Source: a virus
DNA: 64,000 nucleotides
Reading direction: 5' to 3' (one strand)
IMG/VR virus record: IMGVR_UViG_3300027759_000045
Location: 124,001 to 188,000 of that record
Shown here piece by piece: positions 5,122 to 31,060 of this stretch. Numbering within the stretch: the stretch's first letter is position 1; every line of letters starts with the position of its first letter. The notes under the pieces are model-generated. The model was given only the letters and a program-made list of their open reading frames with translations. It ran no database searches and was not told the origin of the DNA. The translations under genes were made by a program, and so were the position numbers.

Positions 5122-5457
5122 ATGGCAATAACAAACACTTATCCAGACGAATACAAACAATGGCAACCTGAACAGGTTAAAATCATTGGAGACCGAGCTG
5201 TAAAGTTTAGTGACGTGTGCGTACACCAGATACGCATGGGCGATGTAGAGGATCCTGATTTGTATGTGGCACAACCTATATATGAATGGCAGGAATCAGA
5301 TGCTGGTAAGTTCATCATGGAACATGCGGTAGAAAAACCTTATTGGACTCGTCAAGCAGATATTGCCAGTTACGGGCACTTGTATCGTATAATGGCTAGA
5401 CTCAGCGAGCAAGATCAAACTTTCTGGACTCTTAAATGGGGAGAATTTAAAAAATGA
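5122..5457 (+). CDS. conserved phage hypothetical protein (111 aa)
   Basis: A 111-residue protein with MGDVEDPDLYVAQPIYEWQESDAGKFIMEHA followed by aromatic-rich KPYWTRQADIASYGHLYRIMARL and an ending FWTLKWGEFKK. I recognise the combination of ...DPDLYAA.PI..W..SE.G.FVM... and a C-terminal ...Y...I.A.L...D.TFW.LKF as a small conserved protein of T4-like marine phages, not functionally described. It lies 20 bases after thyX and overlaps the epimerase by four bases. There are no membrane segments or cysteine clusters. Function unknown. Confidence 0.7.
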   Translation: MAITNTYPDEYKQWQPEQVKIIGDRAVKFSDVCVHQIRMGDVEDPDLYVAQPIYEWQESDAGKFIMEHAVEKPYWTRQADIASYGHLYRIMARLSEQDQTFWTLKWGEFKK

Positions 5458-6422
5458 AAATACTAGTAACAGGCGGACTTGGTCTTATTGGACACAATGT
5501 TGTGCAACGATTAGAAGCACAAGGACACGACGTTGTCATTACCGACACTCGTACCAACTACGGTATTATTCCCCAGGCTGAAGTTGACTACTTGATGTCA
5601 GAACGTTTGAAAAAGATATCAGGCAACAACATATATCACATTGACATTACCGATGCTGACAATGTTGATTGGCTAGTAAATAAACACCAGCCTGAAGTGA
5701 TTATTCACATGGCCAGTTTCCCCCGACAGAAAGTTGTCAATGCTAACCCTGCCTGGGGTAGTCGTGTGATGAGCGAAGGTCTTATTAACATCTGTGAGAG
5801 TGCCAAAAAACACCATGTCAGTCGTGTAGTGTACATTAGCAGTAGCATGGTATACGGCGACTTTGATGATCAAGTTGAAGAGGACTACAATTGCCGACCC
5901 ATTGGCCAATATGGCATCTTAAAATTAACAGGAGAAGACATTGTCAAAGACTACCATCGTCGCGGCGCTTTTGATTACGCTATTATTAGGCCTAGTGCTG
6001 TATACGGCCCCTTGGATGTGGAGGACCGAGTTGTTGCAAAATTTATGCTCACAGCAATGCGAGGCGGCGTTCTCCGAGTTAATGGGGCAGGGGAGACGTT
6101 AGATTTTACCTACGTAGATGATGCCGCTGATGGCATTGTGGCTGCCGCAACACTTGAACACGCACGTAATGATACATACAATATTACCAAATCACATTCA
6201 GTGAGTTTGTTACAAGCCGCAGAAATGATTGTGAAGATTGTGGGCCAAGGCACCATTGAATGTCGCGACAAAGATGCAGACTTTCCCAGTCGCGGTGCAT
6301 TAAATATCACCAAGGCCCGGGCTGTACTAGGATATGATCCCCAAGTGGATGTAGAAGAAGGATTCGAAAATTACTTCAACTGGCTTAACAATTCCGTTTA
6401 CTGGTCTCCGAAAACAGTATAA
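5454..6422 (+). CDS. NAD-dependent epimerase/dehydratase (extended SDR)
   Basis: A 322-residue extended short-chain dehydrogenase/reductase. The Rossmann motif GGLGLIG is at 7-13, the Ser triad member lies in YISSSMVYG (about 127-135) and the catalytic pair is Y153-x3-K157 in YGILK. IIRPSAVYGP (about 177-186) and a late FTYVDDAADG fit the UDP-sugar epimerase/4,6-dehydratase group. The likely substrate is a nucleotide-activated sugar, but specificity cannot be read from the sequence. The next gene is a DegT-type aminotransferase; together they would give an amino sugar. The start is coupled to the previous stop (ATGA). Confidence 0.93.
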   Translation: MKILVTGGLGLIGHNVVQRLEAQGHDVVITDTRTNYGIIPQAEVDYLMSERLKKISGNNIYHIDITDADNVDWLVNKHQPEVIIHMASFPRQKVVNANPAWGSRVMSEGLINICESAKKHHVSRVVYISSSMVYGDFDDQVEEDYNCRPIGQYGILKLTGEDIVKDYHRRGAFDYAIIRPSAVYGPLDVEDRVVAKFMLTAMRGGVLRVNGAGETLDFTYVDDAADGIVAAATLEHARNDTYNITKSHSVSLLQAAEMIVKIVGQGTIECRDKDADFPSRGALNITKARAVLGYDPQVDVEEGFENYFNWLNNSVYWSPKTV

Positions 6423-6480: not shown

Positions 6481-7479
6481 ATGAACGGCAACAATACTGC
6501 AGAGTTTGAATCATGGTTGGCTCGAAAGAACCATGTACGCTATGCAGTAACTTGTCATTCTGGCACACACGCACTTGAGATATTGGCCGGATATTGGGCC
6601 ACGGAATCTCCTGTGCCGCATCCTCCTACTGTGTTAATTCCTGCAATGACTTACGTGGCCACTGCCAATGCATTTATACGTGCAGGATGGGATATACACA
6701 TCATTGACACAGATGCACAGGGATTAATCGATCTTACTAAAATTCCCACAGGCATAAGTTACCAAGCAGTGGTGTTGGTCGGTCTATATGGCGCCGCTGT
6801 CACACATCACGGCAGTGTTCGTACCTGGGAACACTGGATACAACATGATACTCTCGTAATTGAAGATGCTGCCCAACATTGGTTAGCTGCCGACTGCACA
6901 AGGATAGGCAAAGGTGGTGCAGCCATCAGTTTTGATCCTATGAAAAATCTTGCTTGTTATGGCAATGGCGGTGCTGTGGTCACAGACAACTTAGATCTAG
7001 CAGAATATGCTAGATCGTGGCGAGACAATGGTAAACCTACACATAAGAACACAGGAACTAACAGTCGCATGAGCGAATTAGACTGTGCGCACATGTTGGT
7101 TAAATCCAAACACATCGATCGTTGGCAAGCACGTAGACAAAAGATCTCAGACCACTGGGCAGATCGGTTTAAAGACACTGGAATACGTTGTTTAATCAAC
7201 GACACCAATGCACACAATCATGCGTTTCATAAGTTTGTTATTGATGTTGACAAACGAGATATATTAAAAGCCAATCTTGCACTGTGCAAAATTGACACGC
7301 GAGTACACTATGCGACTCCATTGCAAGAAATCAGTTTGTATCGTATGTTTCCAGGACCTGACATGTTGGCAGCAAGTTCTAGTCTAGCTCGGCGTGTACT
7401 AAGCCTGCCTATCTACCCCGAACTTACAGACCTAGAAGTCGAATACATCAGCGATCAGGTTGTAAACTGCGTCGCATAA
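6481..7479 (+). CDS. DegT/DnrJ/EryC1/StrS-family PLP aminotransferase, start codon uncertain
   Basis: PLP-dependent sugar aminotransferase, probably converting a keto-sugar nucleotide to an amino sugar. Seen from ATG 6481: SGTHAL at 27-32, PAMTYVATANAF, EDAAQ at 129-133 (the Asp that binds the PLP ring nitrogen) and SFDPMKNLACYGNGGAV with the PLP lysine at 155. From this ATG the protein lacks the family N-terminus. That N-terminus is coded in the same frame just upstream: from 6391 one reads IPFTGLRKQYNN and later VLRGGQL, the classic DegT opening. No ATG, GTG or TTG exists in that frame between the stop at 6352-6354 and 6481. The true start may be a rare codon (ATT at 6391 or 6370), or an indel may exist. 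The gene ends 32 bases inside the convergent repeat-protein gene. Confidence 0.9.
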   Translation: MNGNNTAEFESWLARKNHVRYAVTCHSGTHALEILAGYWATESPVPHPPTVLIPAMTYVATANAFIRAGWDIHIIDTDAQGLIDLTKIPTGISYQAVVLVGLYGAAVTHHGSVRTWEHWIQHDTLVIEDAAQHWLAADCTRIGKGGAAISFDPMKNLACYGNGGAVVTDNLDLAEYARSWRDNGKPTHKNTGTNSRMSELDCAHMLVKSKHIDRWQARRQKISDHWADRFKDTGIRCLINDTNAHNHAFHKFVIDVDKRDILKANLALCKIDTRVHYATPLQEISLYRMFPGPDMLAASSSLARRVLSLPIYPELTDLEVEYISDQVVNCVA

Positions 7480-10279
7480 ACGCATAACTGGCCAACCAAG
7501 ACCACTCATAGCTCTTCTTCAAGTCTGCAAAGTTGCCGGCTACTTGGTCGTAGTATTCCACAGCATCTTCGGCGCCCCATTGACTCCATTCGGCATTTTT
7601 AGCTTCACCAGCATTGCTGAGCCACATGTTAAGTCTGTATTCACTTTCGACATCGGGTAAACTGGCTTTTAATTTAAGAACTTCACGGAATGCAGTGCGC
7701 CAAGCTGTCCAAGGTGTTTCATTATAATTGGCTACACCACTAAGCACGGGCACAACTTCGTGCGGTTGATCTAATGTAAAGTCCAATCCTGCTCCAGTAT
7801 TCTTCAACACCATTTTTTTGTTGTAGGCAATCATGGCTTGGTGACCATATGTTAATCCATTTACAGGATTGTATGCGTGGAAGATATAGTGTTTGGGTTG
7901 TTGCATACGATCAGGTTGCCAGGTCCAATCAAACATTTGATTCACTTCTAGCTTGGCAAACACAGCAAAGAACCAAGGCGTGGTGCTGGCTCTAGCAGCC
8001 GCATGATACGCTGCCACTCGTCCATTTACACCTTCTACCACATGAACGCGGTTTGTGTACCTTGACTCGTTGGCCAGATATATTGTCATCTGCAAATAAT
8101 TAGATCCAGCATTAGGTTCGCCATTGCTGATAAACACAATGTCCAATGGTTGATCTGTTAACTTGCGATGTGTTCGATCTATGTGTGTGTAGTCATACAA
8201 CTGTGTGCGAATGTCACCTACTGCTACTCTCGGCACAATTACACTAGTGGCACCTGAACTTAGTGGCACAATAGTTTTGGTCTCTTTGCGCCACAAAGGC
8301 ACAGTAAACACATCAGAGCACACAGTGTCTACAGTGGTAAATGTGGCCAATGGACCCGACCATGTTGTGTTTTTAACTACATCAACATGACTGTCTTCTG
8401 TGTGTTGGATCACAGGCATGGGTCTGCGTGGAACACGAATTTTAGGCACATAGTTTACACTGTACCATTCCAGCAGAGCTTTCTTTTCTGCACGAGCCGC
8501 AAATGTAGGAACATGCATATAAAATGTATCTCCAAACTTTTGTTCATTGCTGGCAAATACATGTAGCATGGTACTTTGCCATTTTTCTGGATGCCACGAA
8601 AAGTCAAAGTCTGTGTAGTCACAAATACTGCTACACACCCATACAAACTCATGCTCACCAACAAGACTCTTTGCCAACCGTATCAGAGTATCTCTATAGT
8701 TGTCAAAGTAACGCACCTTCTTTATGGCTCCGGGAACTTGTCCTCCAGCACCATCCAGGTGATCTATTTCAATAACAGGAACTGTGACTGTTTCAATCTT
8801 GATCTCTACATGCTCAAGGTATTTGATTTCTGTTGCGCCTGACACATGATACTGTGGACCACCGGTCTTTTGCCATTGTGTAGCAAACTGATAGATGTAA
8901 GCGGGTTCGCCAGGATCCGGAACCCAAGTGAAGTCCACGTGTTCTTCACGCACACCCTCAGGTAGCACCCACATTGTTTTGTTGGGTAATAGTGCGGCTC
9001 TGGGGTAGTCCATGTACTTGACGGGCAATTCTTGATCCTGGGGCTCAGAACAATAACGCAACATGGGCATTTTCTCTGCAGGCCAGTGTTGATTTCCAAA
9101 CACATATATCATAGGCGGCTCTCCTGGATCGGGCTGCCAAGAGTAGTCGAACTCATAATCATGATGACTGATGTTGTCCCAGTGTAGCTGTGTTTCCGGC
9201 AACTGAGCACGTGGGTAATCCATGTACTTGTGTTCAGTAGCACCAGGCACAGTGTATGTAACAGTGGGCATGATCTCTGCTGAATGCCACTGATTACCAA
9301 ACACGTAGATGTAGGGTGGATCTCCTGGATCTGGAATCCATGAATAATCCCAGTCGCACTGTTGTATAGTGTGCCACTTGTTGTCTTGCCGTACAGGTAA
9401 TTTAGCCCGGGGATAATCCATGTACTTGCGTTCAGTGGCATGGCCCACACAGTATTCCACTGTGGGCATGATCTCTGCTGTGTGCCATTCATTGCCAAAC
9501 ACATATATGTAATCTGGATCTGTAGGATTGGGTCTCCAACTATGATCAAAGTCAGCAATATCGTGCAACACGCCGAAGTCTGCAGGACTAGATGCTACAG
9601 TAGCCACAATATTATCTACATACTTGATTTCTGTGCTGCCAGGCACTGTATAAACTATAGTAGGTTCTAATACTCCAGGATTCCATTGATTGCCAAACAC
9701 ATACGTATAAGGAGGATCAAAAGGATTTGGTTCCCAAGAATAATCAAACTTGCTCACTGCCAGGTTATGCGCAAACAACTGTGGCTGTGGTAATCTCGTT
9801 GTTTTTAAATCCATGTATTTGCGTTCTGTTGCTCCAGGAACAACATACTCTACACTGGCTTTATATTCAGGCGAGTTCCACTGATTACCAAATACATAGA
9901 TATAAGGTGGCTCTGCTGGATCTGGATGCCAGGACCAATCCCATGCCTCTTGATCTATTGTTTCGTGTATTTTCCATGAATCTTCATTGTTAATTCTATG
10001 CAATACTACATCAGTGTGATAGGTTGTGTCTGTATAACCTGCCGCAGGAACAAGATACGTGCCGGAATCTTTTTGCCACTGACTTGCCCATGCATGTCGT
10101 TGGTGTGCTTGCCAAGGCACAGGTTCCCAAAGAAAATCAAAGCCAGAGTAGTCCGATAAGTAATTTACAAACCAAAAGAAACGTGTGCGACTCTGCTGTT
10201 GTGCTTGTTCAATGGTATCTACTGCCTGCTCATGCGCAAACAAATTGGGCTTTTTTCCAGAATAAAATACATCAAACAT
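7448..10279 (-). CDS. 943-aa repeat protein with glycosyltransferase-like C-terminal part
   Basis: A large soluble protein without signal peptide or membrane segment. Six clear copies of a ~66-residue unit cover residues about 113-500, built on FDxSWxPDPxxPPYIYVFGNQW and then GATExKYMDYPRA. Their W-x-P tryptophans lie at 117, 182, 248, 314, 381 and 452. More distant copies occur at the N-terminus (FDFLWEP, near 48-53), after the array (TDFDFSWHPE) and near the C-terminus (MFDWTWQPD). The part after about 720 (LDIVFISNGEPN, RVHVVEGVNGRVAAYHAA, TAWRTAFREVLK) resembles the glycosyltransferase-like protein at 30134-31060. I recognise the YIYVFGNQW units from phage and metagenome proteins placed with glycosyltransferases, but no repeat function is known. 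The ATG shares bases with the divergent ATG at 10278. Confidence 0.75.
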   Translation of the reverse strand: MFDVFYSGKKPNLFAHEQAVDTIEQAQQQSRTRFFWFVNYLSDYSGFDFLWEPVPWQAHQRHAWASQWQKDSGTYLVPAAGYTDTTYHTDVVLHRINNEDSWKIHETIDQEAWDWSWHPDPAEPPYIYVFGNQWNSPEYKASVEYVVPGATERKYMDLKTTRLPQPQLFAHNLAVSKFDYSWEPNPFDPPYTYVFGNQWNPGVLEPTIVYTVPGSTEIKYVDNIVATVASSPADFGVLHDIADFDHSWRPNPTDPDYIYVFGNEWHTAEIMPTVEYCVGHATERKYMDYPRAKLPVRQDNKWHTIQQCDWDYSWIPDPGDPPYIYVFGNQWHSAEIMPTVTYTVPGATEHKYMDYPRAQLPETQLHWDNISHHDYEFDYSWQPDPGEPPMIYVFGNQHWPAEKMPMLRYCSEPQDQELPVKYMDYPRAALLPNKTMWVLPEGVREEHVDFTWVPDPGEPAYIYQFATQWQKTGGPQYHVSGATEIKYLEHVEIKIETVTVPVIEIDHLDGAGGQVPGAIKKVRYFDNYRDTLIRLAKSLVGEHEFVWVCSSICDYTDFDFSWHPEKWQSTMLHVFASNEQKFGDTFYMHVPTFAARAEKKALLEWYSVNYVPKIRVPRRPMPVIQHTEDSHVDVVKNTTWSGPLATFTTVDTVCSDVFTVPLWRKETKTIVPLSSGATSVIVPRVAVGDIRTQLYDYTHIDRTHRKLTDQPLDIVFISNGEPNAGSNYLQMTIYLANESRYTNRVHVVEGVNGRVAAYHAAARASTTPWFFAVFAKLEVNQMFDWTWQPDRMQQPKHYIFHAYNPVNGLTYGHQAMIAYNKKMVLKNTGAGLDFTLDQPHEVVPVLSGVANYNETPWTAWRTAFREVLKLKASLPDVESEYRLNMWLSNAGEAKNAEWSQWGAEDAVEYYDQVAGNFADLKKSYEWSWLASYAFMRRSLQPDR
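8782..9943 (-). repeat. array of six ~66-residue (about 198-base) coding repeats
   Basis: Within the 943-residue protein, the unit FDYSWxPDPxxPPYIYVFGNQW ... PTVxYxVPGATExKYMDYPRAxLP recurs with conserved-tryptophan spacings of 65, 66, 66, 67 and 71 residues. Copies 3 and 4 are most alike (both have AEIMPTV and KYMDYPRA), so they arose most recently or are kept alike by conversion. The copies are diverged at DNA level. Confidence 0.85.
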
Positions 10280-11393
10280 GATAAGAATAGACGAGATTTA
10301 TAATAATACCTTTTGGCCTTGGTTACATAAAAATAAACCAGGTACGAGATTGTTTTTTTGTGATCCGCCGGGAAGAACCGACCCGGATGCTTTATTTAAC
10401 TTGGGCAGTGATGACATTGTAGAAACCGACTACGTGTGGATGCACGATCAAGAACCGTGTTGGACGGAAGAATATCGGCCATTGTTTGATGATGTAGCAA
10501 GACGGAATACGGACTTGTGGTGGCATCAATACAATCAAGTAAAACCAGAACAATTTGGACATGTTGTTGTAAGCGAGCGCGGCGAGTATGTTGAGCAACT
10601 TTGTGCCGCATATGGATGGAAAAGTCACTATTATTTTTACCATGGGTGGGCTTGTCAAGACTGGTTCCGTGGATATGATAAGTCATTCTTAATTCCTCGT
10701 GCAAGAGATCGTGCGCCCACAAAAACTTTTATGAGTCCCAATCGTATCGTAGGCGGCAAGCGTGATCATCGTGTGTTGTTTTTGTATAATATATTCAAAC
10801 AAGGGTTAGAGCATAATCATATCAGTGTGCCACGAGTATGCCAATACGAAAATGTTGACATAAGTGTTGTGGCCAACAAGTATTGTAACACATATCCAGA
10901 TATTTCGCAAGTGTTTGAAAGTGCCGCTTTACCGAGATTGTTTGAAGGAGAAGAGTCACAACAAATGACCAGTTGTTGGCTAGGCAACTATGCAGAAGCA
11001 CAAGACAGTTTGGTATATGTTCCTACCGAAACTGTATACTTTGGCCGCAGAACACACATAACAGAAAAAACATTTAAAGCAATTGCATTAGAAATGCCAT
11101 TTGCATTGGTTGCACCTGCCCACAGTTTGGAGTATATGCGCAGTTACGGATTTAAAACATTTAATGACATATTTGACGAAAGTTACGACACCGAAACTGA
11201 TGACGTACTGCGTGTAGAAAAGGTTACTCGATTATTAAAAGACTTAGACAATCAAAGTGCGAGAGAACGTCAATCAATACATCGTGCATGTTTACCTATA
11301 GTGGAACACAACTTCCGACACTTTTACATGGGCGGATTAACAAATATATTATGGCCGGAACTAACTGGCATGCTCCATGGCTTACGCAAATAA
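10278..11393 (+). CDS. glycosyltransferase-like protein, TEK-motif family (371 aa)
   Basis: A 371-residue protein whose C-terminal third carries HITEKTFKAIALEMPFALVAPAHSLEYMRSYGFKTF (TEK at 262-264), then DESYD and a final EHN. The x-TEK-x3-A-x3-PF-x-V arrangement recalls the donor-binding C-terminal lobe of GT10-type (fucosyltransferase-like) enzymes, where a YxTEK motif is typical; the assignment is by motif only. Three other window genes share it (11377-12564, 24426-25565, 28490-29449). The N-terminal half has MHDQEP (about 55-60) and WWHQYN, likely acceptor side. Its ATG overlaps the divergent start at 10279 and no clear Shine-Dalgarno is visible. It overlaps the next gene by 17 bases. 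Confidence 0.65.
   Translation: MIRIDEIYNNTFWPWLHKNKPGTRLFFCDPPGRTDPDALFNLGSDDIVETDYVWMHDQEPCWTEEYRPLFDDVARRNTDLWWHQYNQVKPEQFGHVVVSERGEYVEQLCAAYGWKSHYYFYHGWACQDWFRGYDKSFLIPRARDRAPTKTFMSPNRIVGGKRDHRVLFLYNIFKQGLEHNHISVPRVCQYENVDISVVANKYCNTYPDISQVFESAALPRLFEGEESQQMTSCWLGNYAEAQDSLVYVPTETVYFGRRTHITEKTFKAIALEMPFALVAPAHSLEYMRSYGFKTFNDIFDESYDTETDDVLRVEKVTRLLKDLDNQSARERQSIHRACLPIVEHNFRHFYMGGLTNILWPELTGMLHGLRK
10295..10302 (-). promoter_or_regulatory. T4-late-like promoter element TATAAATC for the 943-aa gene
   Basis: On the minus strand TATAAATC lies 15 bases before the ATG at 10279, one base off the T4 late consensus TATAAATA, with spacing like the stronger examples at 35931 and 54751. It lies inside the first codons of the divergent plus-strand gene. 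Single-motif evidence only. Confidence 0.35.
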
Positions 11394-12564
11394 CTTTGTT
11401 GCTGACCGCATAGTTCGTAACAAAGCATATCCAGCACTGGCACGTTGGTCGGCACAGCCATACACCTCTGAGTGGAGACAATTTGTACAGCATTGGCCCA
11501 ACACAGTTCCTGCTGAGTTGTACGAACATTTCAACACACACAGCATAGAGTACAAGTTATCTGACTTTAACAATATCGTTACAGGATCTTACTACACAGT
11601 AGGGCTAGGTTTTTTTAACTTTGATGTTGACTACTTTGCCTTAATGACGGAAGTAGTGCGACGTCAGTTACGCCGCGAAGAACTAACTGTGCTGTTTTAC
11701 TATCACGAAGGCGACAATCCATTCCGTATCCGAGATCGACTAGATGAACTGTGTCAAAATCATTTGCTGCCGCCTAACTGCTACCGGTTTGTCAGTGGCA
11801 ATACAGCAGCCAATGGCATTCCAGGCTTTGCATATTTTCCAGATCACGAACTTCTATACTGGCATCGTAATCAACAAATACCCCCAACACCCGTACACTC
11901 AAATAAACGATTGCGCGACTTTACAGTACTAAGCAGAACACACAAATGGTGGCGTGCCACTGTGATGACAGACTTGCATCGTACAGGGTTGTTGAACAAT
12001 AGTTATTGGAGTTACGGAACTGACGTTGCTACAGACGAAGCCGAAACTGACAATCCTATTGAAGTTGACACTCTTGGAATCAGGACAGATATTGAACAAT
12101 TTTTAAGCAACGGCCCGTACACATGCGACACACTTACACCGGAACAACACAACGATCATCACTTAATAGAAACCAATCATTTCACAGATAGTTACTGTAA
12201 CATCATATTAGAAACACATTTTGATGCAGACGGGTCAGGCGGTGCGTTTTTAACTGAAAAAACATTCAAAGCAATCAAACACGGACAACCTTTTGTTGTG
12301 GTGGGCTGTGCAGGATCCTTGTCTGCATTGCGAGACCTAGGATATCGCACATTCGATCACGTTGTGGACAACAGTTACGATACTATACAAGATAATACTG
12401 AACGTTGGATTGCAGTGCGCAACACAATCACTCAATTAAAGTCGCAAAACTTACACGCCTGGTTTGAATCCTGTCGAAGTGATGTTGAACACAATCAACA
12501 GTTATTTTGTAGCACAAAAGCCGGCAGATTAAATACTCTATTAGAAAGAATACACAATGATTAA
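11377..12564 (+). CDS. glycosyltransferase-like protein, TEK-motif family (395 aa)
   Basis: A 395-residue paralogue of the preceding gene in its C-terminal half: AFLTEKTFKAIKHGQPFVVVG (TEK at 293-295), GSLSALRDLGYRTF, then VVDNSYD and VEHNQ. Before this lies YCNIILETHFDADG, typical of this phage family. The N-terminal half differs from its neighbour (VLFYYHEGDNPF at about 105-116, RFVSGNTAANGIPG), suggesting a different acceptor. No membrane segment or signal peptide, so a cytosolic enzyme working on a soluble or lipid-linked acceptor. It overlaps both neighbours. Activity and sugar are inferred only from the family-like motif. Confidence 0.65.
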   Translation: MAYANNFVADRIVRNKAYPALARWSAQPYTSEWRQFVQHWPNTVPAELYEHFNTHSIEYKLSDFNNIVTGSYYTVGLGFFNFDVDYFALMTEVVRRQLRREELTVLFYYHEGDNPFRIRDRLDELCQNHLLPPNCYRFVSGNTAANGIPGFAYFPDHELLYWHRNQQIPPTPVHSNKRLRDFTVLSRTHKWWRATVMTDLHRTGLLNNSYWSYGTDVATDEAETDNPIEVDTLGIRTDIEQFLSNGPYTCDTLTPEQHNDHHLIETNHFTDSYCNIILETHFDADGSGGAFLTEKTFKAIKHGQPFVVVGCAGSLSALRDLGYRTFDHVVDNSYDTIQDNTERWIAVRNTITQLKSQNLHAWFESCRSDVEHNQQLFCSTKAGRLNTLLERIHND

Positions 12565-15407: not shown

Positions 15408-16673
15408 TTATAGGTGTGTCAGCCACGGAAACAACAGTTTCCAATCGGTGCCACGACGGCGATCTATTTCAGTTAGATAAACTTTCAAATCAGCAACACG
15501 TTCTGCGTTGCGCGGTCCTGCCACAATCTGTTTCATAATGCCACGCATGTGTTCTTTAGCACTGACTTCGCTGGGATTGCGTTCTCGCATTGCGGCCAAC
15601 AGACGCTCGAAGTCCTGTTCAAACACACCTGGTCCAAATATGTCTGGAACCATTTCAGGCGGTGTCATTACACTCATGAAACTGTAGCTAATAGGATTCC
15701 ACGGGTTTCGACGATCGTTCCATTCGTTTATCTTTTCTACTAGCTCAGGTGCTGTTTTAATTGTCAATGCCGACACTGCACTGTTCACGCACATCACAAC
15801 CCAGTCTTTATCCAGTAGATATTCCCAGTTTTCTGTCCACTCAGCCAAGTCTAGTCCCCACCGCACATACTCTTCTTGTGGTCCCCAGGCATCTATACTA
15901 CCTGTGATTTGCAATCGTTTTAGTGCGCCAGACTCAACCATCTTGCCAAATCGATCAATGTAGGCTCGGAACTTTTTAGGAGGTACCTTTAGGTTGGTAA
16001 TAATGTTGAATGTGAGTTCGGGATTGGGGTGACTCTCCCAGAAGTCCATGCTGATGTCAAATTCATCCTGGAAGAAAGGCTCGCCGCCTAGTATTTGATA
16101 GTAGCGTATGTGTTTGTAACGATCTTTCTCTTCAAGATAACGCCAAAAGTCTGCTAACATGCGCTCATAGTTGGGATTAGATTGTGTGTTATGCCCAAAG
16201 TTTACATTGCCTTGTGTAAACACACCAAATCGTCGGTTCTCTTCTTCCCATTTTGTACTAAAGTGACTGCCGCAATACAAGCAGGCCATGTTGCATACAT
16301 TGTTGAAATATACTTCTAATATGGTAGGTACAACTTCTAATGTAGCTGGATCTTCAAACAACTCGTGTGGAGTGCGATCTAGGTCATGACGAGCATGCAA
16401 TTGATATTGTCTATCGCTCATGCCGCCGGCTGTTTCAATTTTCTCACAGTATTGACAACCACCCTGTGGCCATTCGCCACGCAACATCATTTGCCTGGCT
16501 TCTATTTTGTTTGGCAGGTTATGAAAACTTTCAAAATTATCCGGAGGTATGGGTTGTTGGTCTGTGCGATGGCAACTGGCACTTGTGCCTTGATTTAAGT
16601 ACACAGTACTCCATGCCCACTTGAGCAAGCATCCTGTGTCTGTTTTGATTGGAAATACTTGTTTATCAGTCAT
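15408..16673 (-). CDS. twitch-domain radical SAM protein (421 aa)
   Basis: Last gene of the long minus-strand operon. The N-terminal twitch region has CLLKWAWSTVYLNQG, SASCHR and GGCQYC (residues about 15-80), the KW/SCH subtype also seen at 23087-24445 and 25549-26949. The radical SAM cluster motif is CNMACLYC (about 140-147), and ILGGEPFF gives the SAM-binding GGEP. The C-terminus, RRGTDWKLLFPWL, resembles the RRGxxFxxxFP ends of the other two of this subtype. Such proteins use SAM and Fe-S clusters to modify peptides or small metabolites; the substrate is unknown. Start overlaps the carbamoyltransferase stop (ATGA). Confidence 0.9.
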   Translation of the reverse strand: MTDKQVFPIKTDTGCLLKWAWSTVYLNQGTSASCHRTDQQPIPPDNFESFHNLPNKIEARQMMLRGEWPQGGCQYCEKIETAGGMSDRQYQLHARHDLDRTPHELFEDPATLEVVPTILEVYFNNVCNMACLYCGSHFSTKWEEENRRFGVFTQGNVNFGHNTQSNPNYERMLADFWRYLEEKDRYKHIRYYQILGGEPFFQDEFDISMDFWESHPNPELTFNIITNLKVPPKKFRAYIDRFGKMVESGALKRLQITGSIDAWGPQEEYVRWGLDLAEWTENWEYLLDKDWVVMCVNSAVSALTIKTAPELVEKINEWNDRRNPWNPISYSFMSVMTPPEMVPDIFGPGVFEQDFERLLAAMRERNPSEVSAKEHMRGIMKQIVAGPRNAERVADLKVYLTEIDRRRGTDWKLLFPWLTHL

Positions 16674-18181
16674 GAGCAGACTTTTACTCCGTATAATTGT
16701 TCAAATCTATCTGCGTCTGCACGATCATTTACCATGGGTTCACCACGTATGTTAAGACTTGTGTTAAGCAACATGGGACAACCTGTGTTCTTGTACCATT
16801 CTTCTAGCAGTTGTCTTATTCCGGAGCCATCCTTGGGAACAGTCTGTACCCTACTAGTGCCATCCCTATGAACGATAGCAGGAAATATGTGAGGATGCCT
16901 ACAGCGAGCGATGACTTGCATATACCTACTGTTATGGAAGCCATGAGGCATATCAAAATACATATCAACATGTTCCTCCAAAATGATTGGCGCAAATGGT
17001 CTGAATTGCTGTCGTCTTTTAATATCATTTACACGGTCCTTTATATCTGCACCACGCGGGTCTGCCAATAAACTACGATTGCCTAGAGCTCTAGGGCCAA
17101 ACTCTGCACGACCACTAGCAACACCCACAATTTTATCACGTAGCAAACAAGCCACAACGTCGTTGACAGGATAAGCACCAGGAATATCACTACCCAGATA
17201 GGCGTTGGTCCAATGTATCTGTTTTCCGTATGCCAGTGCTGCTGCCCCCAGGCTACTGCCAGCATCACCAGGACAAGGCATAATCCAAATGTTATCAAAG
17301 TATTCTCCTAGGTTGCGGTTAGCACTACAGTTGAGAGCAACACCGCCCATGTAGACCAAGTTGTTACTCCAGCCAAAGTCCCTGGCTCTACGCATTACTG
17401 AGTTGATCAGCTGTTCTGCTATGGCCTGTGCGCCAGCGGCAATATCAAACTCCGTTAAGCCTTCTAAGTACTGGTTGTCTATGCCGGTGTGCAGATTTTC
17501 ACGAAAGCGTATGGTGTCTACATCTTCTACCAATGCTTGCATTTTAACAGCGTGACCAGCATTGCCATATGCAGCCATGCCCATCAAGATATATTCTTCA
17601 TCTAATGGACGTAGGCCAACGCTGCCAGTAACTGCAGAGTAGAACAGTCCAATTGAATGTGGATAATGTTGTGTCCAAAGTTTTTTATACTTTGCCATGC
17701 CTTTTGAATCATATTCTGCTCCCCAGATAGTTACGGTGTCTAATTCGCCAATTGCATCAATTACAACCACTGTGGCCCTGTTATAGGGGCTGGATTGGAA
17801 TCCAGCGGCGGCGTGACTATGATGATGGGACATATATTTTCTAGGACATTGTAGTAGTCGCTGCCGATGAACAGTATCAGATAAGTGTTTACGCAGATAC
17901 TGATCCAAAGTAAAATTCCCAAAATTAAAGGCTTCCTCATATTGTCCCGAATATAGTTGTTGTAGTTTTTTGACCCACGGACGTTCATAGTATGCAATCA
18001 CATCCGGAGTTGCGTATGACATTGCTTCTGCAATGATTGAATCATTTAGATGTGCGTCGTTTTTGTTTTTGCTGTAGCGTTCTGCATGGCCAGCAAAAAG
18101 GACGCTGCCGTCAGACTGAATTACACTGACGGCAGCATCGTGAAATCCAGCACTGATACCAAAATATGTTTTCAACTTCAT
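16670..18181 (-). CDS. carbamoyltransferase (NodU/CmcH/TobZ family)
   Basis: O-carbamoyltransferase, which uses carbamoyl phosphate and ATP to carbamoylate a hydroxyl of a sugar or antibiotic. Seen: GISAGFHDAAV at 8-18 (opening of the N-terminal kinase-like domain), HHHSHAAAGF (about 118-127) with the metal-binding histidines, VYMGGVALNCSAN, and the C-terminal RAEFGPRALGNRSLLADP and FRPFAP runs. At 503 residues it is slightly shorter than many CmcH proteins but both domains are complete. It is coupled by ATGA overlaps to a 33-residue gene before it and a radical SAM gene after it. In capsule and antibiotic clusters these enzymes decorate glycans, the most likely role here. Confidence 0.93.
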   Translation of the reverse strand: MKLKTYFGISAGFHDAAVSVIQSDGSVLFAGHAERYSKNKNDAHLNDSIIAEAMSYATPDVIAYYERPWVKKLQQLYSGQYEEAFNFGNFTLDQYLRKHLSDTVHRQRLLQCPRKYMSHHHSHAAAGFQSSPYNRATVVVIDAIGELDTVTIWGAEYDSKGMAKYKKLWTQHYPHSIGLFYSAVTGSVGLRPLDEEYILMGMAAYGNAGHAVKMQALVEDVDTIRFRENLHTGIDNQYLEGLTEFDIAAGAQAIAEQLINSVMRRARDFGWSNNLVYMGGVALNCSANRNLGEYFDNIWIMPCPGDAGSSLGAAALAYGKQIHWTNAYLGSDIPGAYPVNDVVACLLRDKIVGVASGRAEFGPRALGNRSLLADPRGADIKDRVNDIKRRQQFRPFAPIILEEHVDMYFDMPHGFHNSRYMQVIARCRHPHIFPAIVHRDGTSRVQTVPKDGSGIRQLLEEWYKNTGCPMLLNTSLNIRGEPMVNDRADADRFEQLYGVKVCS

Positions 18182-23106: not shown

Positions 23107-24445
23107 ACCATGTTGATAATGTTACGTCTAACGAATAACTGTCTTTAAATGTATCTTTAAAACTTTTTCCGCGACGTTGATCGTACTGTGTGTAAAACTG
23201 CTTAAAATCATTGTGTAACTTAGGCATATCAAATGCGTCTGAATGCGGAGTTTTTACTACATCTAAATAATCAATTAATCTCTGTAGGTGATTAATCTCG
23301 TGTTCGTGCAGTATGTCAGGAACCGCTTTCCATCGCTGTAGGAAATTAGATAAGTCAAGCATGTGACGTGTAAGCAATGCCCGGGGCAATACCAGTGGAC
23401 TTTGAAAACTGGGAAATCTCAATATATTTAATGTAAAGTTAACACGTTCACGACCATACTTTGATTTAAGTTGTACTACGTAATGCAGAAGCATTGGCAA
23501 CGTTGTCAAGCACAATGCATTAATGGTGGCCATTATGTGTACTGCACCCACATGACTGTCTAGTAATTTAACTACATTTTTTTCCCAAGCAGGATAATCT
23601 AGTCCATCTCGAATATATTCAGCGGCAGCGCCAACAGCTTCCATGGATGTGTAAATTTCCACATCCAATCCTTGAGTGCTTTCAATTAATCTATCCACGT
23701 CAACATCTGCACCAAGATTAGAATTAATTGCTAACCGGGTGGTCGATCTACCGGGATTGTTTTTAAACCAGTCAATCAATTTCCATGTCTCGGCACTCAT
23801 TAGCGGTTCGCCGCCGGTGATTCTCAGTTCTTGGAGTGTTTGGTGAAGGTCAGTTTCCCACCATTTAAAAAACGCTTCAACATAGGGATTAGTTTCACCA
23901 AGCCGGTATAGTTGACTGCTAGCGTGAGCATGAGTAAAGTGGTTACGCCCATCAGACACCAGGCCGACATAAGGTCCGCTTCGCTTGATATCATTGACCC
24001 ATGTGCTACTGAAAGCAGGGTTACAATAGCTACAAGCAAATTGGCAAGTGCGATCGAACGCAATTTCAAGTGTGCGAAGATTGACATCTTCGGTGTGTGG
24101 GGTGTTATATGCTTCATCTAAGGCCTTTATAGGATAAATTTTACTTTTGTACACACGGTCTGATACGGAATCTTTGCCCATGTCTTCGATCTTCCAACAG
24201 TATTCACAACCTGAGGGACGTTTCCCTTCCAACATCAGTCGTCGATCATCTTTTTTCTTTGCAGTGTTATGCAATGCAGATGGATTAATTTTTAATTGTT
24301 CAACATCGATTGCGTGTGCTGGAGGGTGATGACAGCTGGTGGTCTGGCCCGAACCTAGCCATATGGTGGCATTGTACCATTTGGCCGCACAAAAACTTGC
24401 ACTCTTGGTGTCTAAAATTTCATGTTTAAAGTCTAAATCGTTCAT
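23087..24445 (-). CDS. twitch-domain radical SAM protein (452 aa)
   Basis: The start is set at ATG 24445 (MNDLDFKHEIL), 20 bases inside the end of the upstream gene; a frame from 24544 would add 33 residues that lie wholly in that gene. KW/SCH subtype: SFCAAKWYNATIWLGSGQ, TSCHHPP, LHNTAKKKDDRRLMLEG, then GCEYCW. The radical SAM motif is CQFACSYC and ITGGEPLM gives GGEP. The C-terminus QRRGKSFKDTFKD parallels the paralogue at 25549-26949 (RRGTDFLTAFPE). The two are separated by one glycosyltransferase-like gene, which suggests a duplicated cassette. Confidence 0.9.
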   Translation of the reverse strand: MNDLDFKHEILDTKSASFCAAKWYNATIWLGSGQTTSCHHPPAHAIDVEQLKINPSALHNTAKKKDDRRLMLEGKRPSGCEYCWKIEDMGKDSVSDRVYKSKIYPIKALDEAYNTPHTEDVNLRTLEIAFDRTCQFACSYCNPAFSSTWVNDIKRSGPYVGLVSDGRNHFTHAHASSQLYRLGETNPYVEAFFKWWETDLHQTLQELRITGGEPLMSAETWKLIDWFKNNPGRSTTRLAINSNLGADVDVDRLIESTQGLDVEIYTSMEAVGAAAEYIRDGLDYPAWEKNVVKLLDSHVGAVHIMATINALCLTTLPMLLHYVVQLKSKYGRERVNFTLNILRFPSFQSPLVLPRALLTRHMLDLSNFLQRWKAVPDILHEHEINHLQRLIDYLDVVKTPHSDAFDMPKLHNDFKQFYTQYDQRRGKSFKDTFKDSYSLDVTLSTWYDSIQI

Positions 24446-25565
24446 TGATAAATTGTTGGAAACGGTTGGGAAATTCTTTGCGAGTCTGTGTGCGCACTTC
24501 TGCAAGATGTTGTTGATTGTATTTACACACATTATAGCATTCATTTAGGAAACTTGCAAGATCTTGTTGGCACAAATCATTAACTATCATTGTTATTCTT
24601 TCCATTCGATCTTGATGATTATCAATAGAATCAAAACTTTCATCAATCACATGTCCAAATGTTTGAAATCCCAACTTGTGTATATCTCGATAAAATCCTA
24701 CACTGGTAGCACAGATCCACGGATGCCCCATGGCCAATGGTTTGGCAATTTTTTCTGTTCTAAAACTATACGGATATTCAAACACAGTTTCAGTTACTAA
24801 ACTAAAGTAGGTGTCAATATACGGAGCAGGTTCTAAATAAATTTCTCCCCATTTGCTGCCAAACAGTTCGTTCTTGGCAAATTTGTGTGGGTAGTCGATC
24901 ACAATACTATTATTTTTAAAAAATTCAAATTCATATTCTGAAGGCAAGTGTTTAATAGATGCAGTTTTTCCCAATAGATCTTGCCTGTTTTCTATTAGTG
25001 TAAAATGCCTGCTGCCACCGGCACGACCATCTAACAGTGTCCAAAGTGCATGATCCAACAGATTCATTTGTCGAAATCTTTCAAGTAGATATTTTCTATG
25101 TGATCTTGCTCGCCCATTTAGAAATAAAAATTTGTAGGGTTTGTTGTGTTTGGCAAAGATTTCATCAGTACGTTGTTGTGCCTGAATGTTTTCATCATAG
25201 TCCAAGATGTGTGTAATAAAATGTTCGTGCAATAGATATGGATATTGAGATTCCATCTCGCCTCCAGTTAGCAACAATAGTTGACCTGACAGTACCAGGT
25301 CCTCAATCTTTAACACATGCAATTGATCCAGTATAGTTTTAGAACCTTCGGCGCTGTTGCCAAATATCACAGTTATGGTTGGATCCTGTGTCATTGATCT
25401 GACACGATCTGTGTGTTCTACCATTTGCTTACGGCCTAATAGATAGATTGAATTGGACTGCGTTTCGTGCAGGCCCAAATCCCAGAATTCATCATCCGAG
25501 TAAGGTTTCATTATACTGTAAACCTCGCTCATTGTGTCAATAATAAACTTACGATTGCCGAGCAT
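24426..25565 (-). CDS. glycosyltransferase-like protein, TEK-motif family (379 aa)
   Basis: A 379-residue protein whose C-terminal half matches the TEK group: FRTEKIAKPLAMGHPWICATSVGFYRDIHKLGFQTF (TEK at 270-272), then DESFDSIDNHQDRMERI. KFLFLNGRARSHRKYLLE (about 145-162) before it is a conserved-looking GT-B type element: N-G-R-x-R-x-H-R. The combination suits a fucosyltransferase-like enzyme with a basic donor-binding site. It lies between two KW/SCH radical SAM genes and overlaps both. A later in-frame ATG at 25532 is possible but would leave a gap in an otherwise overlapping operon. Donor and acceptor unknown. Confidence 0.65.
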   Translation of the reverse strand: MLGNRKFIIDTMSEVYSIMKPYSDDEFWDLGLHETQSNSIYLLGRKQMVEHTDRVRSMTQDPTITVIFGNSAEGSKTILDQLHVLKIEDLVLSGQLLLLTGGEMESQYPYLLHEHFITHILDYDENIQAQQRTDEIFAKHNKPYKFLFLNGRARSHRKYLLERFRQMNLLDHALWTLLDGRAGGSRHFTLIENRQDLLGKTASIKHLPSEYEFEFFKNNSIVIDYPHKFAKNELFGSKWGEIYLEPAPYIDTYFSLVTETVFEYPYSFRTEKIAKPLAMGHPWICATSVGFYRDIHKLGFQTFGHVIDESFDSIDNHQDRMERITMIVNDLCQQDLASFLNECYNVCKYNQQHLAEVRTQTRKEFPNRFQQFINERFRL

Positions 25566-27634: not shown

Positions 27635-28497
27635 TACTTTAGATCCTTTTTCTGTTGTGCAAAGATTTGATCACCATTGTACTGTTCTGGACAAAACTTA
27701 CACTGATCAATGGGCTGGTCTAGACTGTTCACAAACTGCTGTTTAGCTGTGCCACTGTCAGTGATCTTCAAGGGTCTGTAACTCAGCATGAGTTCACGGT
27801 CCTCTGCGCTGAGTGTGAGTGAGTGCTGTTGATCAAATTCGGGCAACACTGCCGCAACACCGCACTTGTACAGCTCACCACGTATGAAATGGTGGCAGGT
27901 TTTCATGTGGCAAATGTCATGTGCTCGAGCTACGTCACTTTGGTGCAGTGTTAGTGCGCCGTCTGTTTTGACAATGGCACCTTGGTGGAACCACCAATTG
28001 TATTCTATTTTGATGCGTACCCCACGTGCATCAGTAATGGTCATGTACTGTTGATAGGGGTTGTCTGTGTTAAACGTCACAGTGTGCGGGGCTTGACCAA
28101 AGTCTCGAACCTTTTGTATGATTTCTGATTTGTGCTGTTTGTTGTGTATGCCAACCCACAGCTCAATGTTGCGATGTTGCTCTAGTATGGGATAAAGATC
28201 GGCATGTCGATCCAATCTAAAGCCATTGCTGATAATTCTTATTTTCTTTCCAGGCCATAGTTGATTTATGCCCTGCACCCAGGCCAAGAACGTGGGGTTC
28301 AGTAGCGGCTCGCCGCCCAGGATGCCAATACTGCCAATATCAACTTGTTCGGCCCACTGCTGATATACTTCAGCATAGTCACTCCAGCGTTGATAGCCCG
28401 TGAAGTTGTAGTCATTGAAACGATTGCAACCTGCGCATGCTAGATTGCAAACATTAATGATATAAAACTCTGCGTAGGGTATGTGTAGCTTAGGCAT
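27634..28497 (-). CDS. radical SAM protein without twitch region (287 aa)
   Basis: A shorter radical SAM protein that opens almost directly with the domain: FYIINVCNLACAGCNRF (cluster motif CNLACAGC at about 17-24) and SIGILGGEPLL for GGEP. RIISNGFRL fits strand 4. The C-terminal third has extra cysteines (ICHMKTCHHFIRGELYKCG, then QCKFC), which may hold an auxiliary cluster in the usual C-terminal position. It therefore differs in layout from the six N-twitch proteins in the operon and is probably an independent lineage. Reaction unknown. Confidence 0.88.
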   Translation of the reverse strand: MPKLHIPYAEFYIINVCNLACAGCNRFNDYNFTGYQRWSDYAEVYQQWAEQVDIGSIGILGGEPLLNPTFLAWVQGINQLWPGKKIRIISNGFRLDRHADLYPILEQHRNIELWVGIHNKQHKSEIIQKVRDFGQAPHTVTFNTDNPYQQYMTITDARGVRIKIEYNWWFHQGAIVKTDGALTLHQSDVARAHDICHMKTCHHFIRGELYKCGVAAVLPEFDQQHSLTLSAEDRELMLSYRPLKITDSGTAKQQFVNSLDQPIDQCKFCPEQYNGDQIFAQQKKDLK

Positions 28498-29449
28498 GTA
28501 GGTCTTGCATTTGAATTCGTTTCAACAACTGATAGTTGTGTTCCAGCACTGATTGCATGTCTGCGTACATGGCGTCTAGTTCAGCAAGGCTTTTTTCAGC
28601 CAATTGCTCTATTAAGCGCACAATTTCTTTTAGTTGATAGTCTGGTGGATCTTCGCTGTAGCCTTCATCCCACCAGGCGTCAAATGTGCGAAATCCCAGG
28701 GCACGTAATCTAGACAGAAACTTCTGTGGCCCATGCACAACAAATGGTGTGCGCATCAGCATGGGGCGCCAGATCTTTTCATCAATATAAAATGTGTCCC
28801 CTGACCAGTAAGTTAAATTCACAATTTCCACAAAGAAGTTGGGATACGCTTTGGTAATGTTTAGTGTGACAGGATTACAAATGGGATATTGATCAATACT
28901 GTCAATTGTCAGCGGTGAGTGTTGCAGTAATTCCACAGCGTCTTGAACTTCTGCCCAGGAATGATTGTTGAACATCATGTCTTCCACGCCAATAAAAGGC
29001 CTGTGATACTGATTGGTCACTTGGGTGTGATAAGTCTGCATGGTTCGATCGCGATGATGTGCATACAAGTAACTGCCCAGATACAGTCGGGGCTGATTGC
29101 CATGCCCAATAAAGTGTCCAAAATGCTTGGCAATTGTTTTGTTGCTAGCAGGCGGACTATATTGTTGTGCGGCTGTGAGATATACCATTTGCGGTTTTAT
29201 AACAATGTTGTAACGGTCATGTGTTTCGGCCAAGTTACAAGTTGTGATATAAATGTCACTGGCACTGTAATTGAAACGACTGCACATATTATCCAGCAAA
29301 TCATACAGGCCCAGGCTGCGAGCACAGGGTCCTTCGCGTTTGGTACCAATATCAATGCGCGGCACGGCCTGTGACATGGCATGGGCAATGTCAATAATCA
29401 GTTGATCACGGTTCCAAATTGTGCTGTCACTGTTGGCAAATTCAATCAT
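28490..29449 (-). CDS. glycosyltransferase-like protein, DEK variant of the TEK family (319 aa)
   Basis: A 319-residue protein sharing the C-terminal pattern of the TEK group: FYIDEKIWRPMLMRTPFVVHGPQKFLSRLRALGFRTFD, then DEGYSEDP and LEHNYQLL. The motif reads DEK (223-225) in place of TEK, and IW is nearer to classical GT10 wording (ITEKLW). FNNHSWAEV and FFVEIVNLTYWSGDTF occupy the positions of donor-lobe strands in its paralogues. Between an SDR epimerase and a radical SAM gene, overlapping both. Possible fucosyltransferase-like enzyme; whether the T-to-D change keeps activity cannot be told. Confidence 0.62.
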   Translation of the reverse strand: MIEFANSDSTIWNRDQLIIDIAHAMSQAVPRIDIGTKREGPCARSLGLYDLLDNMCSRFNYSASDIYITTCNLAETHDRYNIVIKPQMVYLTAAQQYSPPASNKTIAKHFGHFIGHGNQPRLYLGSYLYAHHRDRTMQTYHTQVTNQYHRPFIGVEDMMFNNHSWAEVQDAVELLQHSPLTIDSIDQYPICNPVTLNITKAYPNFFVEIVNLTYWSGDTFYIDEKIWRPMLMRTPFVVHGPQKFLSRLRALGFRTFDAWWDEGYSEDPPDYQLKEIVRLIEQLAEKSLAELDAMYADMQSVLEHNYQLLKRIQMQDLHA

Positions 29450-30134
29450 TCATGTACTCCGCCACATGCTCAAATACTTCTGACTTTGACAGTACGTATT
29501 GACCAAATGGTGCGCAACTGTGTAAATCATAAGGCGGTACAGCATTGTTGGTCAACGCAACATCTGCGCAGAATCTCTGCATTATTTCTGCGTCAGACAC
29601 AGGCTCACTTACCAAATTGATTTCTCTAATGTCATGTTCAATCACTGTGGCAATGTCCCTGCACAGTCTTGACAGCGGATAATACTGCCTGACCACAGCA
29701 CCGTTGACACGATCCAAGTATTGACGATGGCGAATATCAAACAATAGATTTTTACTGATTGCAGGGTGAATCAAGGTACACAGTCTAATAACATGACAGC
29801 ATTCAAATTGAGTCAGGGCAAAATGTTCCAATGCCAGTCTGTTGCTGCCATACACAGAATCTGGTGCGTACACAGCGTCCACTGATCCGATCAGTACAAA
29901 TCTATTGGCCCTAACTGTGCGCAAGTTATCAGCAAGATATCCAATGCTGTCTGTGTCCCACTGTGGTTGTTGATTGGCCCGCAAGCGATTGCCTGATAGT
30001 GCCGCACAGTACACAGTGTCAAAATTACAATGTTGTATCTGCTCTATATTGGCAGAGTTGTAGGTTTGGTCAAATTCGAGGTTGGCACCTAACACTGTGC
30101 CAATCAAACCAGTGTGACCTATCAACACGTTCAT
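29442..30134 (-). CDS. NAD-dependent epimerase/dehydratase-like SDR with YxxxR
   Basis: The start is ATG 30134 in a TAATG overlap with the upstream stop; a TTG six bases earlier is possible. The Rossmann motif GHTGLIG is at 6-12, VLIGSVDAVY holds the active-site Ser region, and the catalytic Tyr is in YGSNR, where Arg stands in the place of the usual Lys (YxxxK). At 230 residues it is shorter than the 5454 epimerase and lacks much of the substrate domain. It may be an altered-activity SDR or a degenerate one. Neighbours are glycosyltransferase-like genes, so sugar-nucleotide chemistry is the best guess. Confidence 0.75.
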   Translation of the reverse strand: MNVLIGHTGLIGTVLGANLEFDQTYNSANIEQIQHCNFDTVYCAALSGNRLRANQQPQWDTDSIGYLADNLRTVRANRFVLIGSVDAVYAPDSVYGSNRLALEHFALTQFECCHVIRLCTLIHPAISKNLLFDIRHRQYLDRVNGAVVRQYYPLSRLCRDIATVIEHDIREINLVSEPVSDAEIMQRFCADVALTNNAVPPYDLHSCAPFGQYVLSKSEVFEHVAEYMND

Positions 30135-31060
30135 TACCAACCTTCTTGCTTCCTGATCACATCAATTTCTCGAACCATAACGCCTTGATTGTGCCAACCG
30201 ATACGATAATGATGTTTGAAAAACTTGCTGGCTTCGTCTTCGTACCAGACCATTGGCAAGTCTAACTGTGTACTTAGTTCTTCGGCTACGCGACCTAACA
30301 ATAGTTCCGGCTCAGTGTCTTTGACTGTGTCCCACAACTCGTTTAACGAATCAAACCATTGCACTTGTTTATGATCCCAATTGGTCAGCATGGTCATGTA
30401 CGTGCCCATTCGAGCACCAGCAATGGCCCATACTCCATGTTCAGCATCACGACCCACATTGTGCCACACAGTCAAGTTGTCTAAGTTGCGCTGATGTACA
30501 CGCTGTTTAAATTCTGCCACTGTGGGACGCACACCTTTGTTCAGGCACATCTTTACACCTTCGCGGAATCCTGCTCGCCAAGCATGAAAAGCTGAACCAT
30601 TGGGATATGTTGTACTATAGCAATCGTGCATGGCCCAATATAAGGGATCAAAACAAAACTCTACTTCGGTGGCGGCTGTGCCATCTGTGTTTTCATGTGT
30701 TTTCATTTCGTTGACAAATGTGCGTGTCCATGAACTCATGCCACCGTTGCCATACATCAAGCCATTGATGTTGTTACACGCTCTCCAACGGAACACTGCA
30801 CGTTCATAATCTGTAGTAGGAAATGTTAGTGTTTGATTGAAGAATTCAGGATGCGGCATATTATCGCCGTCGATCAAAATAAAACGTTCTGTTTCACTTG
30901 CGGCAGCGGCAGCTTTGTGTGCGGCATCTGATCCTTTGACTCCGTCAACACGTTTGGCCCAAGGCACCATGTTGCGAATTCGAACCCAGAATTCTTCCTT
31001 CTGTGGTTCGTCGTAGGTCAAGTAGATGCAGTCTAGGTCTGCTACATCAATTTGATTCAT
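30134..31060 (-). CDS. glycosyltransferase-like protein (308 aa)
   Basis: The N-terminal part is GT-A-like: LDCIYLTYDEP (about 9-19), WAKRVDGVKGSDAAHKAAAAAS and RFILIDGDNMP, where the D-G-D would be the DxD metal/nucleotide-sugar motif (about 62-64). The later FHAWRAGFREGVKMCL corresponds to TAWRTAFREVLKLKA in the 943-residue repeat protein, and the VDGVKG...AAHKAAAAA run matches VEGVNGRVAAYHAAARA there, so the two share a domain. The present protein has none of the repeat units. It overlaps both neighbours. Sugar and acceptor unknown. Confidence 0.7.
   Translation of the reverse strand: MNQIDVADLDCIYLTYDEPQKEEFWVRIRNMVPWAKRVDGVKGSDAAHKAAAAASETERFILIDGDNMPHPEFFNQTLTFPTTDYERAVFRWRACNNINGLMYGNGGMSSWTRTFVNEMKTHENTDGTAATEVEFCFDPLYWAMHDCYSTTYPNGSAFHAWRAGFREGVKMCLNKGVRPTVAEFKQRVHQRNLDNLTVWHNVGRDAEHGVWAIAGARMGTYMTMLTNWDHKQVQWFDSLNELWDTVKDTEPELLLGRVAEELSTQLDLPMVWYEDEASKFFKHHYRIGWHNQGVMVREIDVIRKQEGW

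Follow-up and report, generated by a model that had tools for sequence, protein, structure and literature searches.

A phage gene for a variable-length array of GT-A-like half-modules: a candidate glycan-handling scaffold

What could a phage gain from a protein that consists largely of one repeated unit and is encoded among sugar-biosynthesis genes? The question is raised by a 943-residue protein, here called the array protein, encoded in a stretch of 64,000 nucleotides (the window) that covers positions 124,001 to 188,000 of the IMG/VR virus record IMGVR_UViG_3300027759_000045 (346,856 bp). An earlier note on this DNA had described nine FDxSWxP units, six of them in a regular array of about 66 residues, had recognised no function for the repeat, and had suggested a glycan-binding ruler or a scaffold. 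On the evidence below we tentatively favour the view that this is a variable-length rod of the GT-A superfamily, acting as a glycan-handling scaffold in a phage sugar-modification cassette and either non-catalytic or at most metal-independent.

The repeat organisation was confirmed by motif positions, self-comparison and profile searches. FDxSWxP-type motifs lie at residues 47, 113, 178, 244, 310, 377, 448, 557 and 783, and the six from 113 to 448, spaced 65, 66, 66, 67 and 71 residues apart, constitute the array; an offset of 66 is also the peak of the self-comparison. A profile built from the six units scored each of those same units at 94-115 bits (E 1e-27 to 3e-34), and an iterated profile to which relatives had been added also matched the N-terminal (45 bits) and middle (49 bits) motifs and, weakly, the C-terminal one (14 bits). 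Units within one protein are ~48% identical. Since the units in the window share only 60-75% identity in DNA and TRF (Tandem Repeats Finder) found no DNA tandem repeat in the array gene, the repeats are, to judge from their sequences, old. Comparison between relatives gave a ratio of nonsynonymous to synonymous substitution (dN/dS) of 0.07-0.11 in the array, indicating that the open reading frame encodes a real protein under purifying selection.

The repeat also proved to lack a recognised family, and no unrelated known domain was matched by the unit in Pfam, PHROG, NCBIfam, PDB or Foldseek searches. The whole protein had no above-cut-off match in Pfam, PHROG or NCBIfam and none among PDB sequences, where one search gave two chance hits only. 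No relative was found among cultured phages in INPHARED (three queries) or in 84,980 bacterial and archaeal genomes, and a structure search of BFVD returned two uncharacterised proteins of uncultured Caudovirales phages (UniProt A0A6J5L5L5 and A0A6J5LK21; 34-41% identity over ~1000 columns). The Pfam family LAG1-DNAbind was matched weakly in 13 of 15 relatives (best E 1.1e-5), and the array protein reached 13.9 of the 25 bits needed for gathering; we rejected this as a summed chance match, because one 20-residue stretch was matched repeatedly. UreE_C, matched in three of the 15 (best E 3.8e-5), suggests no role.

The origin of the unit became apparent from comparison with the rest of the protein. 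In single hhalign comparisons the unit matched the N-terminal, middle and C-terminal modules with E values of 1.5e-6, 7e-7 and 4e-5, and a bridge module in one relative (L018, 336-458) was matched simultaneously by almost the whole unit profile (48 bits) and by the full profile of the middle GT-A-like module (62.6 bits). Because of these profile links and the bridge, the most fitting description of the unit is a GT-A half-module: it corresponds to what comes after the DxD strand and lacks the Rossmann half, in which the nucleotide is bound. The correspondence is one of sequence homology. Many of the conserved aromatic and proline residues of the unit are common to the non-array modules, and they are thus probably structural rather than sugar-binding.

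The earlier note had likened the C-terminal part to a glycosyltransferase-like protein of 308 residues (30134-31060), and the likeness was borne out both by BLASTP with residues 712-903 (E 3e-4) and by hhalign with the C-terminal profile of the relatives (E 1.9e-11, 156 columns), the 308-residue protein itself being called a transferase from its motif and a sub-threshold Pfam hit (E 0.096). In an AlphaFold2 (AF2) model, residues 709-852 adopt a GT-A fold, for which VIA gave a Z score of 11.4 against B4GALNT1 (root-mean-square deviation (rmsd) 2.9 over 140 residues) and Z scores of 9-11 for many other GT-A entries; the longer segment 495/499-852 aligned to two-domain glycosyltransferases at an rmsd of ~13 Å, that is, domain by domain. 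At the position of the DxD motif the array protein reads VFAKL, as against IDGDN in the 308-residue protein. Among 135 unique relatives this slot held FAK in 110, NAK in 12, PAK in seven and other triplets in six, DxD in none, and a lysine at the second aspartate position in all 135. Pattern examination of all modules of the relatives found DxD in 0 of 659 slots, and the N-terminal VNY and middle CSS slots keep the same spacing to FDF as the C-terminal slot. As DxD was tested and is absent, we do not claim membership of the active glycosyltransferase families for the array protein. Compared with its nearest relatives, the array protein is 75% identical in the GT-A region, with a dN/dS of ~0.2, and 91% identical in the array, with a dN/dS of 0.08. 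We also observed that the region of the first Rossmann helix (window 8027-8119, residues ~721-751) exists in distinct alleles, which are exchanged among relatives.

An invariant lysine, together with a retained NPxNGLxYG segment, is more than would be expected of a decaying pseudoenzyme, and the gene sits in a sugar cassette. An active, metal-independent glycosyltransferase, in which Lys776 would partly substitute for the metal and an acceptor polymer would be bound by the array, making the enzyme processive, is therefore the main alternative, although we regard it as unlikely. Metal-independent GT-A enzymes exist: BoGT6a, with NXN in this position, and the DxD-less GT14 family are active without metal, and basic residues near the C-terminus serve the diphosphate (PMC3961637). 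However, the basic residues that stand in for the metal in BoGT6a and C2GnT-L are located there and not in the DxD slot (PMC3961637), and across the array protein and its relatives the first aspartate of the slot has given way to F, N, P or W, predominantly F, a replacement that is not isosteric. Moreover, the xED catalytic base and the C-terminal metal-binding histidine of the GT-A core (PMC7185993) gave no confident alignment to the C-terminal domain, whose base was not located. The lysine would be a clean discriminator between a pseudoenzyme and a metal-independent enzyme.

The AF2 models were ordered, and the array regular, in agreement with the earlier note. The whole protein had a mean predicted local distance difference test (pLDDT) score of 86 and a predicted template modelling score (pTM) of 0.48, while three array units alone reached 95.8 and 0.85; the units are accordingly predicted by the model to pack in a fixed geometry, forming a rigid array. 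The three-unit model had no Foldseek match in the PDB (best E 5.8) and VIA found none among eight chains; the missing PDB and domain matches do not prove that the array has a new fold.

We next consider the relatives, which are metagenomic contigs of uncultured giant phages. A search of IMG/VR gave 456 confirmed stretches, of which the best 80 were kept; a second clade in IMG/VR stands at ~35% identity. The 104 complete relatives are 596-2717 residues long and carry 0-28 strong units, with start-to-start spacings mostly of 63-73. Copy number varied even between close relatives, a check that the earlier note had proposed: 10 units against seven at 99.6% C-terminal identity, and 12 against three at 91.8%. 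The C-terminal GT-A domain was kept in 149 unit-bearing proteins, and all 31 that were without it reach a contig edge. In one pair (L141 and L181) a 5.7-kb flank is 95% identical, the N-terminal cap 87% identical in DNA and the last three units 83-94%, and the upstream units are no closer than paralogous units in general, having been replaced by different sequences and not lost as copies. Array length and content thus turn over rapidly between fixed ends, and the fact that phages otherwise nearly identical have exchanged units suggests strong selection on the glycan or partner handled. It is very improbable that mis-assembly of tandem repeats accounts for most of the variation in copy number: a few arrays in these metagenomic contigs (L174, L282) do have units 94-99% identical in DNA and could be mis-assembled, but the units of the window are too different to collapse, the lengths keep frame with tight spacing, and the exchanged units of L141 and L181 are not missing copies. 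In L282 (3-8843), a 30-unit array shows higher-order repeats of about four units with 94-97% DNA identity, which may reflect either recent multi-unit duplication or an assembly artefact.

Rigidity, fixed ends, 0-28 units and quick changes of number and content between near-identical phages are also features of Periscope Proteins, bacterial surface adhesins in which folded repeats form rigid arrays and closely related members differ in repeat number (PMC8201768). The array protein might by analogy form a length-variable rod on the virion or another surface, holding out a lectin-like GT-A head, with its array under diversifying turnover, and the glycan cluster indeed adjoins a tail-gene module. 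We consider this improbable, since the gene lies among sugar-biosynthesis genes and not in a structural operon, no structural family was matched, and no signal sequence or anchor was noticed by eye, without a formal test, the N-terminus MFDVFYSGKKPN being unlike a signal sequence; such a rod would explain the length turnover but not the cassette. In most of the 95 loci of the window's clade the gene order is kept: thyX, a small gene, an epimerase, a DegT aminotransferase, the array gene, a divergent gene, a second transferase-like gene, an amidinotransferase-like gene and a carbamoyltransferase. The neighbours mostly differ in the second clade, where 59 of 76 loci have a carbamoyltransferase close to the array gene, a few of the 76 being first-clade members recovered again.

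A glycan-handling scaffold is the reading to which we return, because it is suggested jointly by the module homology, the bridge module, the GT-A fold, the loss of DxD, the C-terminal domain kept in every uncut unit-bearing protein, the ordered array, the sugar cassette, the turnover, the purifying selection and the precedent of CHPF discussed below. The rod of half-modules would hold a growing glycan and/or the transferases and carbamoyltransferase of the cassette, the terminal GT-A domain would bind a sugar donor or acceptor, and the number and type of units would match a fast-changing glycan or set of partners. The ruler or scaffold proposed from the sequence is compatible with these data but unproven. 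A bolder version, which we put forward as speculative and rather doubtful, is that the second half of the GT-A fold became a stand-alone 66-residue repeat that forms a rigid rod ended by the Lys-for-DxD domain, and that phages shuffle it in cassette fashion to program glycan length or composition. Several points weigh against a scaffold. We infer the glycan binding and the partners; a protein that has lost DxD is not necessarily inactive, as the activity of BoGT6a and GT14 without metal illustrates (PMC3961637); and a role in the virion is conceivable. In addition, AF2 can model repeat proteins confidently but wrongly, as described for perfect repeats (PMC11795689), and this over-confidence could extend to the array model, a worry that the divergence of the units and the natural alignment lessen but do not remove.

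Table 1. Features of the array gene and its surroundings (window positions)
Feature	Position	Strand	Remarks
Whole array gene, 943 aa, ATG start	7448..10279	-	N-module, six-unit array, middle module, C-terminal GT-A domain, helical tail
N-terminal cap module, residues 1-97, minimal GT-A-like	9989..10279	-	VNY in DxD slot; hhalign to middle module E 8e-12
Array unit 1, residues 102-162	9794..9976	-	Iterated profile 94 bits
Array unit 2, residues 168-227	9599..9778	-	Iterated profile 88 bits
Array unit 3, residues 237-293	9401..9571	-	Iterated profile 86 bits
Array unit 4, residues 302-359	9203..9376	-	Iterated profile 96 bits
Array unit 5, residues 367-429	8993..9181	-	Iterated profile 69 bits
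Array unit 6 (C-terminal unit), residues 437-494	8798..8971	-	YQFATQxQKTGG replaces YVFGNQW; 79 bits
Middle degenerate GT-A-like module, residues 498-615	8435..8788	-	CSS in DxD slot
Unassigned connecting segment, residues 616-705	8165..8434	-	
C-terminal GT-A domain, residues 706-855	7715..8164	-	FAK replaces DxD
Codon of invariant Lys776	7952..7954	-	Aligned to second Asp of DxD
C-terminal helical tail (AWRTAFRE...)	7451..7714	-	Part common to 30134-31060 protein
308-aa homologue of C-terminal domain, intact IDGDN (DxD)	30134..31060	-	BLASTP, hhalign
NAD-dependent sugar epimerase/dehydratase	5454..6422	+	Syntenic neighbour
DegT/DnrJ/EryC1/StrS aminotransferase	6481..7479	+	Convergent; overlaps array gene 3' end by 32 bp
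Divergent neighbour without family match	10278..11393	+	Homologue in 90/95 relatives' loci
Unassigned neighbour (second transferase-like gene), TEKTFKxI motif as in 10278-11393	11377..12564	+	Synteny conserved
Carbamoyltransferase	16670..18181	-	Neighbour most widely kept across both clades

The array gene is encoded on the other strand from the two genes that flank it, and it overlaps each of them (Table 1). The gene at 12557-13576 matches phrog_25854 and is presumably amidinotransferase-like, as we read it; together with the genes at 6481-7479 and 16670-18181 it resembles a tailoring set of guanidino/carbamoyl amino-sugars. Four unassigned proteins (10278-11393, 11377-12564, 24426-25565 and 28490-29449) have in common a TEKTFKxIxxxxPFxxxG-like motif, which takes a variant form in the last two and resembles a transferase C-terminal motif, and Pfam gave nothing convincing for the members tested. 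Between 13525 and 28497 about eight radical SAM or radical-SAM-like genes (starting at 13525, 15408, 19327, 20606, 21823, 23087, 25549 and 27634), several with SPASM, are packed with the carbamoyltransferase, an unusual density for a phage; only some were matched by Pfam, the others being read by eye. These genes raised the idea that the array protein is a precursor of a ribosomally synthesised and post-translationally modified peptide, which we rejected because the units have a predicted fold and share ancestry with segments of GT-A domains, and because radical SAM genes are not constant neighbours. A DNA-glycosylation cassette is not favoured either, since the 347-kb record contains no thymidylate-synthase-family (PF00303) gene, with positive controls; a search of the record for Tet_JBP gave no match and was uninformative, as its control gave no signal anywhere. 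A further observation is an open reading frame for 4855 residues (36730-51297) beside baseplate genes, possibly a giant tail-fibre or structural protein.

It is uncommon for a portion of an enzyme domain to have given rise to folded tandem repeats. We found no solved structure or paper on a repeat made of GT-A half-domains, and nothing relevant on phage tandem pseudo-glycosyltransferases in the open-access literature, the coverage of which is incomplete. If the proposed origin is true, the array protein would document how an enzyme can become a scaffold, the bridge module being an intermediate that is still visible, and a large group of uncultured phages would have a component of variable length in their glycan cassettes. 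Its nearest folds are those of GT-A glycosyltransferases (B4GALNT1, WrtF, CHSY3-CHPF, LH3 and Mimivirus R699), which residues 709-852 resemble in fold; in contrast to these proteins, it has a lysine for DxD and no DxD in any module, and a half-module array is not seen in them. DxD is lost both here and in BoGT6a and GT14, the slot of the array protein being x-A-K. Periscope Proteins are comparable in the variation of unit number between close relatives, but they consist of unrelated domains, whereas the array protein belongs to a phage sugar cassette and has divergent units, near-identical repeats being confined to a few relatives (L174 and L282, for example). A functional parallel may be CHPF, a DxD-less GT-A partner of chondroitin polymerase whose stabilising role is supported experimentally (PMC12748766). 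Like the array protein, CHPF and CHPF2 have GT-A domains without DxD and stand beside active transferases; unlike it, they carry no array, and the stabilising role that is supported there is one that we infer here.

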